In this document: in pieces, positions 7,455 to 28,249 of the stretch
How positions within the stretch are numbered: the stretch's first letter is position 1
Layout: each line of letters opens with the position of its first letter
Origin: Candidatus Stoquefichus massiliensis AP9
GTDB taxonomy: Bacteria > Bacillota_I > Bacilli_A > Erysipelotrichales > Coprobacillaceae
Assembly (NCBI RefSeq): GCF_000455285.1
Contig: NZ_HG005285.1
Span: 315,286-348,570 of the forward strand
Length of the DNA: 33,285 nt
Direction: 5' to 3'
Notes under the pieces: generated by a model
What the model was told of the DNA's origin: nothing
Databases searched by the model: none
The model's input: the letters and a program-made list of their open reading frames with translations, nothing else
Made by a program: the position numbers and the translations under genes

Positions 7455-9857
7455 TTATCTTATAACCACATTGACAATCTTATTCTTAACCACAATCACT
7501 TTGACGATATTTTTACCATCAGTATGCGTCTTCACATTATCTTGTGACAATGCTTCAGTTTTCACAACTTCGTCATCTTCATCCTTAGCAACGGTAATTT
7601 TAGCACGAAGTTTTCCATTCACTTGAACAGCCATTTCTACTGTTGTCTGTTCTAACATTTTTTCATTATATATTGGCCATGCTTCATAAGCAATTGTTCC
7701 CTCATGCTCTAACAAAGTCCACATTTCTTCACAAATATGTGGAGCAATACAGCTTAACATCTTGACTAAGTTTTCAGCATATGGACGATATAATGTTTTG
7801 GCTTTATAAGCTTCATTTACAAAAATCATCATTTGTGAAATAGCAGTATTAAATCCTAATGTTTCATAATCAGCAGTCACTTTTTTCACAGTAGCATGAT
7901 AAATATAATCTAATGAATGATCATTTTCATCAGTCAATTTATCTGATTCAATGATTAAACGATAAACACGATCCAGCCATTTTCTTGCTCCATCTACACC
8001 ACTTTCACTCCATGGTTTACTTGCTTCTAATGGTCCCATAAACATTTCATAAACACGTAATGTATCTGCACCATAAGCTTCAATAATATCATCAGGATTA
8101 ATAACATTTCCTTTTGATTTACTCATTTTTTCTCCATTACCACCTAAAATCATACCCTGATGGTATAACTTTTGGAATGGTTCTGGATGTGATACAAATC
8201 CTTTATCATATAAATAACGATTCCACATACGTGAATATAATAAATGTCCAACAGCATGTTCTGGTCCACCAACATACAAATCAACTGGTAACCAGTGATC
8301 TAATAACTTTCTATCAGCGATTTCTTTATCATTATGTGGATCAATATAACGCATATAATACCAACTGCTACCTGCACTTCCTGGCATTGTACTTGTTTCA
8401 CGTTTTCCGTGTTTTCCATCAACTTCTACATTTACCCAGTCAGTGGCTTTATCTAATGGTGAAGCTCCTGTTTTAGATGGTGAATAATCTTCTAATGGTG
8501 GTAAAATCAATGGTAATTGATCATCTGATAAGGCAACAGATGTTCCATCATCAAAATTAATTACAGGAATTGGTTCACCCCAGTATCTTTGACGAGCAAA
8601 GATCCATTCTCTCAAACGATAATTAACTTTTTGTTGACCACAATGATGGTCTTCTAACCATTTTGTCATAGCTGCAATGGCATCTTCTTTATTCATACCA
8701 TCTAAAAAATCAGAATTGATATGTAATCCATCTTGAGTCCATGCTTCCTTAGAAACATCTCCACCTTCCAAAACAGGAATAATATCAATACCAAATTTCT
8801 TTGCAAATTCATAATCTCTATCATCATGTGCAGGCACTGCCATAATTGCTCCAGTTCCATACCCTGCTAAAACATAATCAGAAATCCAAATAGGAATTTC
8901 TTTTTGATTGACAGGATTAATCGCATATGCTCCTGTAAATACCCCTGTCTTCTCTTTATTTAACTCTGTACGTTCTAATTCTGACTTTGTTGCACAAGCT
9001 TGTACATAGCCTTCAACCGCTTCTTTTTGTGAATCAGTTGTGATTTTAGCAACCAATTCATGTTCTGGTGCCAAAACACAATAAGTTGCTCCAAATAAAG
9101 TATCACAGCGTGTTGTAAAGACTGTAAACTTATCATCATGTCCTGATACTTTAAAGTCAACATGTGCACCAATAGATTTACCAATCCAGTTTCTTTGAAT
9201 TTCTTTTGTAGATTCAGGCCAGTCAATTTCTTCTAATCCCGCTAATAGTTTTTCAGCATAGGCAGGAATATCAATTACCCATTGTTTCATATTCTTTCTA
9301 ACAACTGGGAATCCACCACGTTCACTCTTCCCATCAATGATTTCATCATTAGCTAGAACAGTTCCCAACTCTTCACACCAGTTAACTGGAATATCTACAT
9401 TTTTAGCCAACCCATCTTGATATAATTGTTTGAAAATCCATTGTGTCCATTTATAATAATCTGGATCACATGTAGAAATACATTTATCCCAATCAAATGA
9501 GAATCCTAACATCTTTAATTGCTTTGTAAATGTTGCAATATTTTCTAAAGTGAATCCTTCAGGATGATTTCCTGTTTTGATTGCATATTGTTCAGCCGGT
9601 AAACCAAAAGCATCAAATCCCATAGGATGCAATACATTATATCCTTGCATTCTTTTCATTCTTGACATAATATCAGTGGCTGTATATCCCTCTGGATGTC
9701 CAACATGTAATCCTTGTCCTGATGGATATGGAAACATATCCAAAGCATAATATTTTGGTTTTGAAAAATCCCATACATCTGTATAGAAAACCTTATTTTC
9801 ATCCCAATACTTTTGCCACTTCTTTTCAATTTGTTTGTGATCAAACGGCATACTCAT
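7455..9857 (-). CDS. leuS: Leucyl-tRNA synthetase
   Basis: An 800-residue class I aminoacyl-tRNA synthetase charging tRNA-Leu. The HIGH motif appears as HVGH (51-54) and the KMSKS loop is intact (about 572-577). The editing domain ([13 protein letters not shown], then [18 protein letters not shown]) and C-terminal anticodon-binding region are complete; length is normal for the bacterial type. The open frame starts MSMPFDHK; a strong AAAGGAGG sits only two bases before the first ATG, so the second ATG (9851) is better spaced. It is transcribed alone behind a leucine T-box leader and has its own terminator. Confidence 0.98.
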
Positions 9858-9875: not shown

Positions 9876-10091
9876 AAAAGTCGTCCATCTAAGGACGACT
9901 TTATCGCGTTACCACCTTAGTTCATGTATTTACATGCCCTCAACACCTTAACGCAGTGATACGATCAAAACTACTCATTTCATTTTGACATCTCCAAGGC
10001 GAGTTCATTGCATCCTCTACTTGTTTTCACCACCCACAAGTTCTCTACAAGATTCCTAACAACTACTATTCCTCTTCATTGATTTTACATA
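9876..10091 (-). promoter_or_regulatory. Leucine-specific T-box leader of leuS
   Basis: The untranslated leader has the conserved T-box core AGGTGGTAACGCG (complement of 9905-9917), where the uncharged tRNA 3' end pairs. It is followed by a strong terminator, AAGTCGTCC/GGACGACTT (9878-9886 and 9893-9901) with a T-run. Upstream, the distal stem-I signature GGTGGTGAAAAC and a specifier segment TGAACTCGCC are seen. The specifier reads CTC, a Leu codon (10001-10003), matching the gene. Uncharged tRNA-Leu should stabilise the antiterminator and allow leuS expression. Confidence 0.93.
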
Positions 10092-15410: not shown

Positions 15411-15432
15411 GAAAAAGCTCCCATAGGAGCTT
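15411..15432 (-). terminator. Terminator of metK
   Basis: AAGCTCC (15415-15421) pairs with GGAGCTT (15426-15432), with a T-run on the minus strand. It overlaps the metK stop codon. Confidence 0.85.
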
Positions 15433-16573
15433 ACAAATATTTTTTTAAATCTTCTGTTTTATCTAAATTCTCCCATGGTAAATTCAAATCACCTCTACCA
15501 AAGTGTCCATAAACGGCTGTATTTAAATAAATTGGTCTTAATAATTGTAGTGTATCAATAATACCTTGAGGTGTTAATTGAAACTCTGTTTTAATAGCAT
15601 GTAAGATCGTATCTTTGGAAATCTTTTCTGTATCATATGTTTCAATATAAACGCTTGTTGGCTCTTTCACACCAATAGCATAAGACAACTGAATTTCAAT
15701 ACGATCACAAAGTCCAGCAGCCACAATGTTTTTAGCCATATATCTTGCCATATAGGCAGCACTTCTATCAACCTTTGATGGATCTTTACCAGAAAAAGCA
15801 CCACCACCATGACGAGCTGTTCCACCATATGTATCAACAATAATTTTACGTCCTGTCAGTCCTGTATCACCATGTGGACCACCAATTACAAAACGTCCTG
15901 TTGGATTGATATAAACTTTATAATCAGTATTCATATCATATTTTTTCACAACATCTTTCATAATAACATTTTGAATATAATCTTTAAATAAACGTTCATC
16001 AAAATCATCATCGTGCTGAATTGACATTAAGATTGTATCAATACGTGGATTTTGCATATCTGAATAATCAATTGTCACCTGTGATTTCATATCAGGACGG
16101 GCCCATTTAAATTCACCAGCATGTCTTTTTTCAGTTGCATAACGCACCAGATGATGAGCAATAGAAACAGGTAATGGCATATAGCCTTCTGTTTCATTAC
16201 AAGCATAACCAAACATAATGCCCTGATCTCCAGCTCCACCAACTTCGACATTTGTTCCTAAAGCAATATCTACTGATTGAGTATCCATCACAACCTCAAT
16301 CTGACAATGATCAGCATCAATTCCTAGTTCATCACTTGTATACCCAATTTTTCTTAAAACACCTCTCGCAATACTTTCATAATCAACTTTCGCATTGGTT
16401 GTGATTTCTCCACCAATAACTAATAGATTTGTTGTTGTAAAACATTCACAGGCAACTCTTGAATAAGGATCCTGTGCTAAACATGCGTCTAAAATTGCAT
16501 CACTAATTTGATCACAGACTTTGTCTGGATGTCCTTCTGAAACAGATTCAGATGTAAATAAAATCTTTTCCAT
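15431..16573 (-). CDS. metK: S-adenosylmethionine synthetase
   Basis: A 380-residue enzyme making S-adenosylmethionine from ATP and methionine. ESVSEGHPDKVCDQISDA, GDQGIMFGYA, and the P-loop-like GGAFSGKDPSKVDRSAAY are all intact; length is normal. The frame extends to 16594, but ATG 16573 follows GGAGG at good distance and gives the usual MEKILFTSESV start. Transcription passes through a SAM-I riboswitch (16596-16725), so the product's own end product represses it. Confidence 0.98.
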   Translation of the reverse strand: MEKILFTSESVSEGHPDKVCDQISDAILDACLAQDPYSRVACECFTTTNLLVIGGEITTNAKVDYESIARGVLRKIGYTSDELGIDADHCQIEVVMDTQSVDIALGTNVEVGGAGDQGIMFGYACNETEGYMPLPVSIAHHLVRYATEKRHAGEFKWARPDMKSQVTIDYSDMQNPRIDTILMSIQHDDDFDERLFKDYIQNVIMKDVVKKYDMNTDYKVYINPTGRFVIGGPHGDTGLTGRKIIVDTYGGTARHGGGAFSGKDPSKVDRSAAYMARYMAKNIVAAGLCDRIEIQLSYAIGVKEPTSVYIETYDTEKISKDTILHAIKTEFQLTPQGIIDTLQLLRPIYLNTAVYGHFGRGDLNLPWENLDKTEDLKKYL

Positions 16574-16595: not shown

Positions 16596-16725
16596 AAAAA
16601 AAGCTTTCAAGAGGAAAGCTTTGTGCTTCCTCTTATTGTTCAAGTAAACTTGCTAGGTAAGGCACCTTCTTTAAAAAGGGTTGCCACCACTTCATTGATC
16701 CTCATCTCGTGGTTCTTAATAAGAG
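16596..16725 (-). promoter_or_regulatory. SAM-I (S-box) riboswitch with intrinsic terminator, metK leader
   Basis: On the minus strand P1 is CTCTTATT...AATAAGAG (16725-16718 with 16637-16630). Inside are AAGAACCAC/GTGG (P2), the GGCAACC...GGTGCC P3 core and a CAAGT/CTTG P4. Downstream, AAAGCTTTC/GAAAGCTTT plus a T-run (16596-16622) is the terminator. The 3' P1 strand and following AAGAGGAAGC can pair with GCTTTCCTCTT of the terminator, giving the expected antiterminator switch. P2b looks unusually short (GAT-GAGG-ATC), with GAGG free for the pseudoknot with CCTT. Confidence 0.9.
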
Positions 16726-16732
16726 CTTTCTA

Positions 16733-16858
16733 TTATTGATATAATTTTGTTAGTTCTTCATGACTTAGAGATGTCATGGCTTCAATGAGTTCCATTTCTA
16801 ATCCTAAATCATAAAGAATCGCAGCGATTTTTAACTGCTCTTGCTTTCTTGTATTCAT
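16733..16858 (-). CDS. Small protein of 41 aa directly upstream of the SAM riboswitch
   Basis: A short gene with ATG at 16858, GGTGAT five bases upstream, and TAA at 16733-16735, seven bases before the first base of riboswitch P1. The product is predicted to be mostly helical: a basic N-terminus (MNTRKQEQLKIAAILYDLGL) then an acidic amphipathic half (EMELIEAMTSLSHEELTKLYQ). It has no signal peptide or membrane segment. I do not recognise a family; the pattern resembles a small helix-turn-helix or adaptor. Because no promoter separates it clearly from the riboswitch, it may share the metK transcript. Codon use is like its neighbours. Confidence 0.6.
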   Translation of the reverse strand: MNTRKQEQLKIAAILYDLGLEMELIEAMTSLSHEELTKLYQ

Positions 16859-17011
16859 AGTATCACCACTATTAGTTTATCCCAATCAAATGACATTATT
16901 CTACAAATCAAGACTTTCTCAATTATATGCTACTGATATCTATAAATCAAGAGATATTTTCGCATATTAAGATTATAACACATATTTTTTGATATTTTTC
17001 TCAAATTTGTC

Positions 17012-22527: not shown

Positions 22528-22603
22528 GGAGGTTTAGCTCAGTTGGGAGAGCATCTGCCTTACAAGCAGAGGGTCAGCGGTTCGAGCCCGTTAACCTCCA
22601 CCA
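22528..22603 (+). tRNA. tRNA-Val (UAC)
   Basis: Complete cloverleaf with acceptor GGAGGTT/AACCTCC, anticodon loop CTTACAA (anticodon TAC), T-loop GTTCGAGC and encoded CCA. Confidence 0.96.
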
Positions 22604-22606
22604 TTT

Positions 22607-22682
<76 letters not shown>

Positions 22683-22690
22683 TGTTTCTT

Positions 22691-22774
22691 GGGGAGGTAG
22701 CGAAGTGGCTAAACGCGGCTGACTGTAACTCAGTTCCTTTCGGTTCGGTGGTTCGAATCCGCCCCTCCCCACCA
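22691..22774 (+). tRNA. tRNA-Tyr (GUA)
   Basis: Class II tRNA with acceptor GGGGAGG/CCTCCCC, anticodon loop CTGTAAC (anticodon GTA), a long variable arm and encoded CCA. Confidence 0.95.
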
Positions 22775-22783
22775 TTTTTTTAT

Positions 22784-22859
22784 TGGGATATAGCCAAGCG
22801 GTAAGGCAACAGACTTTGACTCTGTCATCTCCCTGGTTCGAATCCAGGTATCCCAGCCA
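22784..22859 (+). tRNA. tRNA-Gln (UUG)
   Basis: Acceptor TGGGATA/TATCCCA, anticodon loop CTTTGAC (anticodon TTG), T-loop GTTCGAAT, discriminator G and encoded CCA. Confidence 0.95.
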
Positions 22860-22869
22860 ATGTATATTT

Positions 22870-22945
22870 GACCCGCTAGCTCAGTCGGTAGAGCATCTGA
22901 CTTTTAATCAGAGGGTCAGGCGTTCGAGTCGCCTGCGGGTCACCA
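22870..22945 (+). tRNA. tRNA-Lys (UUU)
   Basis: Acceptor GACCCGC/GCGGGTC, anticodon loop CTTTTAA (anticodon TTT), T-loop GTTCGAGT, encoded CCA. Confidence 0.96.
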
Positions 22946-22954
22946 TTCTTAAAT

Positions 22955-23028
22955 GCGGGTGTAGTTCAATGGTAGAACTTCAGCCTTCCAAGCTGACTAC
23001 GTGGGTTCGATTCCCATCACCCGCTCCA
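22955..23028 (+). tRNA. tRNA-Gly (UCC), copy 1
   Basis: 74 nt with acceptor GCGGGTG/CACCCGC, anticodon loop CTTCCAA (anticodon TCC), T-loop GTTCGATT, encoded CCA. Identical to the copies at 23052 and 28176. Confidence 0.96.
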
Positions 23029-23051
23029 TTTAAAATTTTATAAATCCTTAT

Positions 23052-23125
23052 GCGGGTGTAGTTCAATGGTAGAACTTCAGCCTTCCAAGCTGACTACGTG
23101 GGTTCGATTCCCATCACCCGCTCCA
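23052..23125 (+). tRNA. tRNA-Gly (UCC), copy 2
   Basis: Identical in all 74 positions to copy 1, 23 bases after it. Last tRNA of the cluster. Confidence 0.96.
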
Positions 23126-28175: not shown

Positions 28176-28249
28176 GCGGGTGTAGTTCAATGGTAGAACT
28201 TCAGCCTTCCAAGCTGACTACGTGGGTTCGATTCCCATCACCCGCTCCA
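28176..28249 (+). tRNA. tRNA-Gly (UCC), copy 3
   Basis: Identical in all 74 positions to the two copies at 22955 and 23052, about 5 kb away, with its own promoter and a downstream hairpin terminator. It abuts the 3' end of the retron reverse transcriptase gene. Confidence 0.96.

Follow-up and report, generated by a model that had tools for sequence, protein, structure and literature searches.

The small gene and its neighbours

The window is a 33,285-nucleotide stretch of the genome of Candidatus Stoquefichus massiliensis AP9. On its minus strand, genes for a NifU-like protein and MscL are followed by a small open reading frame (ORF), a SAM-I (S-box) riboswitch with its terminator, metK, and a gene whose product has both S30AE (hibernation factor) domains (Table 1). 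The original prediction held that the small ORF is an unlisted 41-aa gene directly 5' of the riboswitch, with GGTGAT, ATG and TAA in register and an end seven bases before P1 of the aptamer. These elements are all as described: GGTGAT lies at positions 16867..16862, a few bases 5' of the ATG, the 41 codons 16858..16733 translate as MNTRKQEQLKIAAILYDLGLEMELIEAMTSLSHEELTKLYQ, and a gap of 7 nt separates the stop (16733) from the start of the Rfam SAM aptamer (16725). The score of the aptamer exceeds the covariance-model gathering score (44.4 bits), and this element 5' of metK is the only RF00162 match in the whole genome. From what is generally known of S-box leaders, we take the stem at 16608..16635 to be the antiterminator. 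Elsewhere in the window, a T-box leader (141.7 bits, 9888..10088, minus strand) lies 5' of an 800-aa ORF (7455..9857), seven tRNA genes are clustered at 22528..23122 (plus strand), and an eighth lies at 28176..28246.

Table 1. Features of the small-gene and metK locus, numbered within the window
Feature	Position	Strand	Basis
Promoter-like TTGATT-17-TATAAT, sigma-70-like	16922..16950	-	10/12 consensus matches
Predicted hairpin pairing the small-gene Shine-Dalgarno GGTGA (16867..16863)	16863..16893	-	MFE -5.5 kcal/mol, z -1.78, SD 5/5 paired
Small gene, 41 aa, ATG to TAA, predicted three-helix HTH-like product	16733..16858	-	Homology, selection, model
SAM-I (S-box) riboswitch aptamer, RF00162	16630..16725	-	Rfam match, 62.1 bits
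Alternative stem, read as antiterminator	16608..16635	-	Stem found in sequence
Intrinsic terminator stem, then T run	16600..16622	-	Stem found in sequence
metK, S-adenosylmethionine synthetase	15431..16573	-	Pfam S-AdoMet_synt N/M/C; ATG start read from sequence

Conservation and genomic linkage

One check proposed with the original prediction was a search for conserved short homologues 5' of metK, and such homologues exist. With the peptide as query, tblastn found matches in 25 of 60 genomes (the window's own counted), all among the 37 from the window's family and none among the 23 outside it. A profile search matched 30 of 43 family genomes at E <= 3.3e-16, and named carriers include Thomasclavelia, Faecalibacillus, Massilimicrobiota and Longibaculum. 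Twenty-four loci were drawn by a pattern-based scan from a collection of 84,980 species. Matches in frames of several hundred codons, which are either chance or Rpn-type proteins, were not counted, and a match in L027 (43% over 21 residues, in a 173-aa frame) was left out as chance. The remaining 13 family genomes gave only weak matches in long frames (4) or none at all (9) in the profile search. Because these 13 have no clear homologue, the small gene would not be essential within the family. In one family genome (G003, locus L040), a 36-aa ORF, MEDEYLKKLMEVYKSVHLSDDVIEALVHNKDNSTKY, precedes SAM-I and may be a divergent version of the small gene; it was accepted by no profile and was not counted.

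Across the conserved core, the ORF frame is free of stops in 30 family members, while the other five frames carry a stop in 16 to 30 of the 30. For eight chosen pairs pooled, pN/pS is 0.096, with 59.3 synonymous changes (130 sites) versus 22.7 non-synonymous changes (518 sites); the binomial p of 6e-24 for the synonymous excess in these pairs is too small, since the sequences are related. One of the eight, L012/L014, is an exception that displays no such constraint (6 non-synonymous and 2 synonymous changes). Within a 27-residue core, compared in 23 sequences of equal length, all 27 third codon positions vary and only 9 second positions do so. The least conserved part of the peptide is its C-terminus, which is nearest P1. 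Conservation is thus found at the amino-acid level, and these patterns indicate both that selection acts on the encoded protein and that ORF 16858..16733 is a genuine conserved protein gene.

Within the family, the gene is closely tied to the riboswitch. The aptamer start motif adjoins it in 29 of 30 loci, the thirtieth being cut by a contig end, and SAM-I at gathering score lies directly 3' in 24 of 24 testable loci among the first 25 matches (26 loci were scanned; the two negatives were a contig end, L015, and the chance match L027). A scan with RF00162 took in 36 genomes, 23 outside the family and 13 within it, 12 of the latter lacking a tblastn match; SAM-I is kept in 10 of these 12. Where non-carrier loci of the family could be read, they contain SAM-I and metK with a short leader that has no homologous ORF, G003 having the divergent short ORF.

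Homologues also occur beyond the family. A profile search of 294 genomes of the order matched 48, comprising the 30 of the window's family and 18 of group f2, one of which (G070) is a long frame containing a stop. No SAM-I at gathering score was found at the 16 f2 loci read, and no metK was seen beside the f2 copies; instead, several follow genes with a TSCPD-type tail, or NusG_II and Hpre_diP_synt_I-like genes. At one locus, L114, the next gene resembles, by eye, the S30AE gene located 3' of metK in the window. Matches were also obtained in 27 of 196 genomes from another order (13 in f13, 4 each in f8, f26 and f28, and 1 each in f31 and f32), and a repeat search of 147 genomes from another centre returned 26 matches in the same genomes. 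The metK motif is present 3' of the small gene in 23 of these 27 carriers outside the order (G812 and G776 were unparsed, and the motif was not found in the fetched stretch of G784 and G793). SAM-I at gathering score lies between the small gene and metK in G582, G768, G772, G597, G778, G774, G770, G765 and G786. By group, an aptamer is present in this position in f26, f28, f32, one f13 genome and, below threshold, f8; it is absent there from the remaining f13 genomes with metK and from f31. The f8 aptamers score 36 to 39 bits (L151:1710-1817, L182:1373-1480 and L181:1707-1814), and in L151 and L182 the first 61 nt of the SAM-I-like aptamer double as coding sequence of the small gene. Another f8 locus, L179, has the same sequence and is not among the scored matches. 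At L172, the SAM-I match is located ~1 kb before the small ORF instead.

Two loci bridge the f2 and metK contexts: at L153 the row reads NusG_II, Hpre_diP_synt_I, small ORF, SAM-I, metK, and at L151 a TSCPD gene precedes the small ORF. These arrangements thus support a single origin of the f2 and metK-linked copies. Since homologues precede metK without SAM-I and occur away from metK in f2, the conserved function of the peptide is independent of the riboswitch.

Promoter, leader RNA and position of the stop codon

Sites of the form TTGxxx-N16/17-TAxxxT are present in most family members at about the same distance as the promoter-like site of the window. No good promoter precedes the ORF in the g7 genomes (L011, L014 and L066), whose small genes may be read from mscL, and at L096 the best-scoring site falls inside the ORF. 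A leader block, TGATTTGTAGAATAATGTCA (16891..16910 in the window, minus strand), shows strong conservation across several genera, the promoter-less g7 among them. The original prediction placed the riboswitch between two genes if these are co-transcribed. Given a promoter-like site 5' of the ORF and a stop-to-P1 gap of just 7 nt, which leaves no room for a separate promoter, the riboswitch most likely does lie between two genes of one transcript, the small gene and metK.

The predicted hairpin over the Shine-Dalgarno (SD) sequence of the small gene has counterparts at other loci. Mean z is -1.57 in 65 small-gene start segments versus -0.18 in 95 control gene starts from the same loci (p 2.6e-10, too small since the sequences are related), and the SD is paired at 4/5 positions or more in 72% of the small-gene segments versus 31% of controls. 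The mean z is -1.92 for the 37 segments outside the family and -1.12 for the 28 within it; in genus g4 the hairpin is weak or absent (mean z -0.33). An SD-overlapping hairpin also accompanies homologues before metK in six other family-level groups. Its arms differ between groups, for example CTCAC/GTGAG and ATCAC/GTGAT, and a covariation count at one flanking pair, with the arms chosen by a simple script, is suggestive at most: 28 of 47 sequences are paired versus 21.2 expected (p 0.026, too small since the sequences are related). (The parsing script skipped L125, L181, L189 and L190; L189 was added by hand to the covariation count.) RNAalifold found no single consensus structure in the family leader alignment. 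Pairing of the stop-codon region (AATAATAG) with P1 in an anti-P1 hairpin, spotted by eye, was dropped: in 28 of 29 loci the folding energy is 0 to -1.4 kcal/mol, L026 (-3.1 kcal/mol) being the outlier.

The original prediction also suggested that translation ending next to P1 could influence folding of the aptamer. In 25 of 35 loci (2 of 37 were unparsed) the stop falls within the aptamer or at most 9 nt ahead of P1, so that, given the usual ribosome footprint, a ribosome terminating there would contact P1. In genus g4 and in G768 and G765, the ORF ends within the P1 sequence of the aptamer, CTCTTATTAA, which encodes its tail SY and its stop. Coupling between translation and riboswitch may therefore operate in many of these bacteria, being neither uniform nor needed where there is no riboswitch. 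However, in an attenuator uORF the stop would hold a fixed position relative to the RNA structure, and here the stop-to-P1 distance ranges from -61 to +57 nt; the conserved device is thus not a ribosome held at an exact position. Because the distance varies, and because the gene is also found before metK without a riboswitch and away from metK, an effect on P1 cannot be what has conserved the gene.

Predicted fold, function and related systems

An AlphaFold2 model built from a 30-row alignment (pLDDT 93.8, pTM 0.69) has helices at residues 3-17, 22-29 and 33-40; the product is thus predicted to be a compact three-helix, helix-turn-helix (HTH)-like protein. The nearest solved structures found by Foldseek are E. 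coli RpnA-S (rmsd 0.6 over 34 columns, 35% identity, E 0.44), then the FlhC N-terminus, then a TrpR-like protein, with none at E <= 0.001. VIA-align gives Z of 6.8, 6.5 and 6.4, respectively, all below the telling level of 8. The model does form an RpnA-S-like three-helix bundle (rmsd 1.2 over 38 residues to 7th0), a weak likeness given a predicted model of 41 residues. Since Foldseek yields no match at that threshold and Z stays below 8, fold likeness alone shows no function. In eight members tested, no Pfam or NCBIfam family scored above its cut-off. Three identities were considered and rejected: FlhC (PF05280, E 2.2e-4, 21.5 of 27 bits; NCBIfam, 21.2 of 216 bits), the Rpn family TIGR01784 (14.1 bits, cut-off 52.1) and Wmk (3.4e-5, 23.4 of 300 bits, restricted to a 37-residue HTH-like piece). 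Phage records gave no match and plasmid records only an FlhC match at E 0.06.

We consider it probable that the ORF is a real small-protein gene heading the metK unit and encoding a trans-acting HTH-like regulator, whose own translation is probably checked by the SD hairpin. As the first gene of the unit, it would be transcribed from its own promoter whatever the level of SAM, and SAM-I with its terminator would decide only whether RNA polymerase continues into metK. The product, probably a dimer, would most likely be a small regulator that works in trans by binding nucleic acid or protein. The SD-covering hairpin would probably restrain translation of the small gene, possibly as a form of autoregulation.

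A different role for the ORF would be in cis: a ribosome terminating at or in P1 would block the 5' strand of P1, favour the antiterminator and raise metK expression, making translation a second input to the riboswitch. The many stops close to or inside the aptamer fit such a device, as do the P1 sequence that encodes the ORF tail in g4, G768 and G765 and the 61-nt entry of the f8 ORF into the aptamer. However, the variable stop-to-P1 distance, the variation of every third position in the core while amino acids are kept, the poor conservation of the P1-proximal C-terminus, and the copies that accompany metK without a riboswitch or lie away from metK make this possible but unlikely as an account of the gene. 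A leader-peptide attenuator, sensing methionine or SAM through stalling at Met codons or arrest of the nascent chain, could draw on the internal Met codons and on the position before a methionine-pathway gene. Yet the Met codons form no run, several members have Ile or Val in place of Met28, the C-terminus is unconserved, and neither conservation of a folded core nor the f2 copies away from metK suit it; we find this reading scarcely credible. That the ORF arose by chance in a long leader, as its shortness and its absence from the annotated genes according to the original prediction might suggest, is refuted by protein-level conservation and the open frame, and its probability is practically nil.

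The structural match raises the question of a stand-alone RpnS-type antitoxin directed against Rpn nucleases encoded elsewhere. Besides RpnA-S being the nearest solved structure, the profile also matches Rpn-sized frames in G583, and an Rpn match is present in 26 of 30 family carriers versus 3 of 13 non-carriers, a difference that is not independent of relatedness. Rpn proteins are frequent among family genomes (29 of 43), and some sets of Rpn-type nucleases are large (17 matches in G001, of the window's genus, and 16 in G021). However, an Rpn match (TIGR01784, E <= 0.001) is missing from 26 of the 27 carriers outside the order, and none is seen in 17 genomes there without the small gene. The family carriers G035, G033, G036 and G014 likewise have no Rpn match, and the gene is linked to metK rather than encoded in or with rpn. 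Because carriers exist without Rpn, this reading is rejected as very improbable. A fuller scheme would have a class-wide, so far undescribed family of small HTH-like proteins, with a gene that bears an SD-covering control hairpin and has remained next to metK. The protein would bind this hairpin and so set its own synthesis; where the stop codon falls at or within P1, the translating ribosome would gate SAM-I folding, and metK would integrate the levels of SAM and of the small protein. This scheme is distinctly doubtful.

A conserved protein gene thus appears to lie inside the S-box leader in several bacterial groups, in some overlapping the aptamer, which would leave the annotation and the riboswitch models of their metK genes incomplete. 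The small protein family has a clear genetic address, a confident predicted fold and a testable RNA partner, and its stop codons, located before, beside, inside or without an aptamer, offer a natural series for probing the effect of translation on riboswitch folding. A search of open-licence PMC text found no paper on a small protein before SAM-I and metK.

S-box leaders are usually taken as non-coding RNA between promoter and gene. The locus resembles an ordinary S-box metK leader in having a SAM-I aptamer, antiterminator and terminator before metK and differs in the conserved protein gene between the putative promoter and the aptamer. Among proteins, RpnS (E. coli RpnA-S, PDB 7th0) is alike in its three-helix bundle of ~45 residues, its HTH resemblance and its sequence pattern; the N-terminal segment of FlhC (PF05280; PDB 8j56, 2avu) follows the same three-helix path with 29-32% identity in structure alignments. 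The small protein, however, is a quarter of the length of FlhC, lacks its other parts and falls below the Pfam cut-off. RpnA-S is described as a dimeric three-helix bundle, and RpnS proteins, which arise from internal starts within rpn genes, inhibit the full-length nuclease (PMC10327210), whereas the small gene stands alone before metK. The SAM-II leaders of S. meliloti are also SAM-responsive leaders of methionine genes with unusual translation, but they belong to another riboswitch class, and the abstract mentions no conserved upstream protein (PMC9373788). In M. tuberculosis, riboswitch-linked uORFs are reported for B12 with metE and ppe2 (PMC11260477) and for the Mbox with pe20 (PMC12810186). 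As here, a short translated ORF and a riboswitch share one leader (PMC11260477, PMC12810186), and Mbox/pe20 further involves a conserved small protein with one homologue outside the riboswitch context (PMC12810186). The M. tuberculosis ORFs are reported to be controlled by the aptamer or to be located within it or 3' of it (PMC11260477, PMC12810186); the small gene, unlike them, lies upstream of its aptamer and would escape the switch, its 3' end overlapping the aptamer in some groups.
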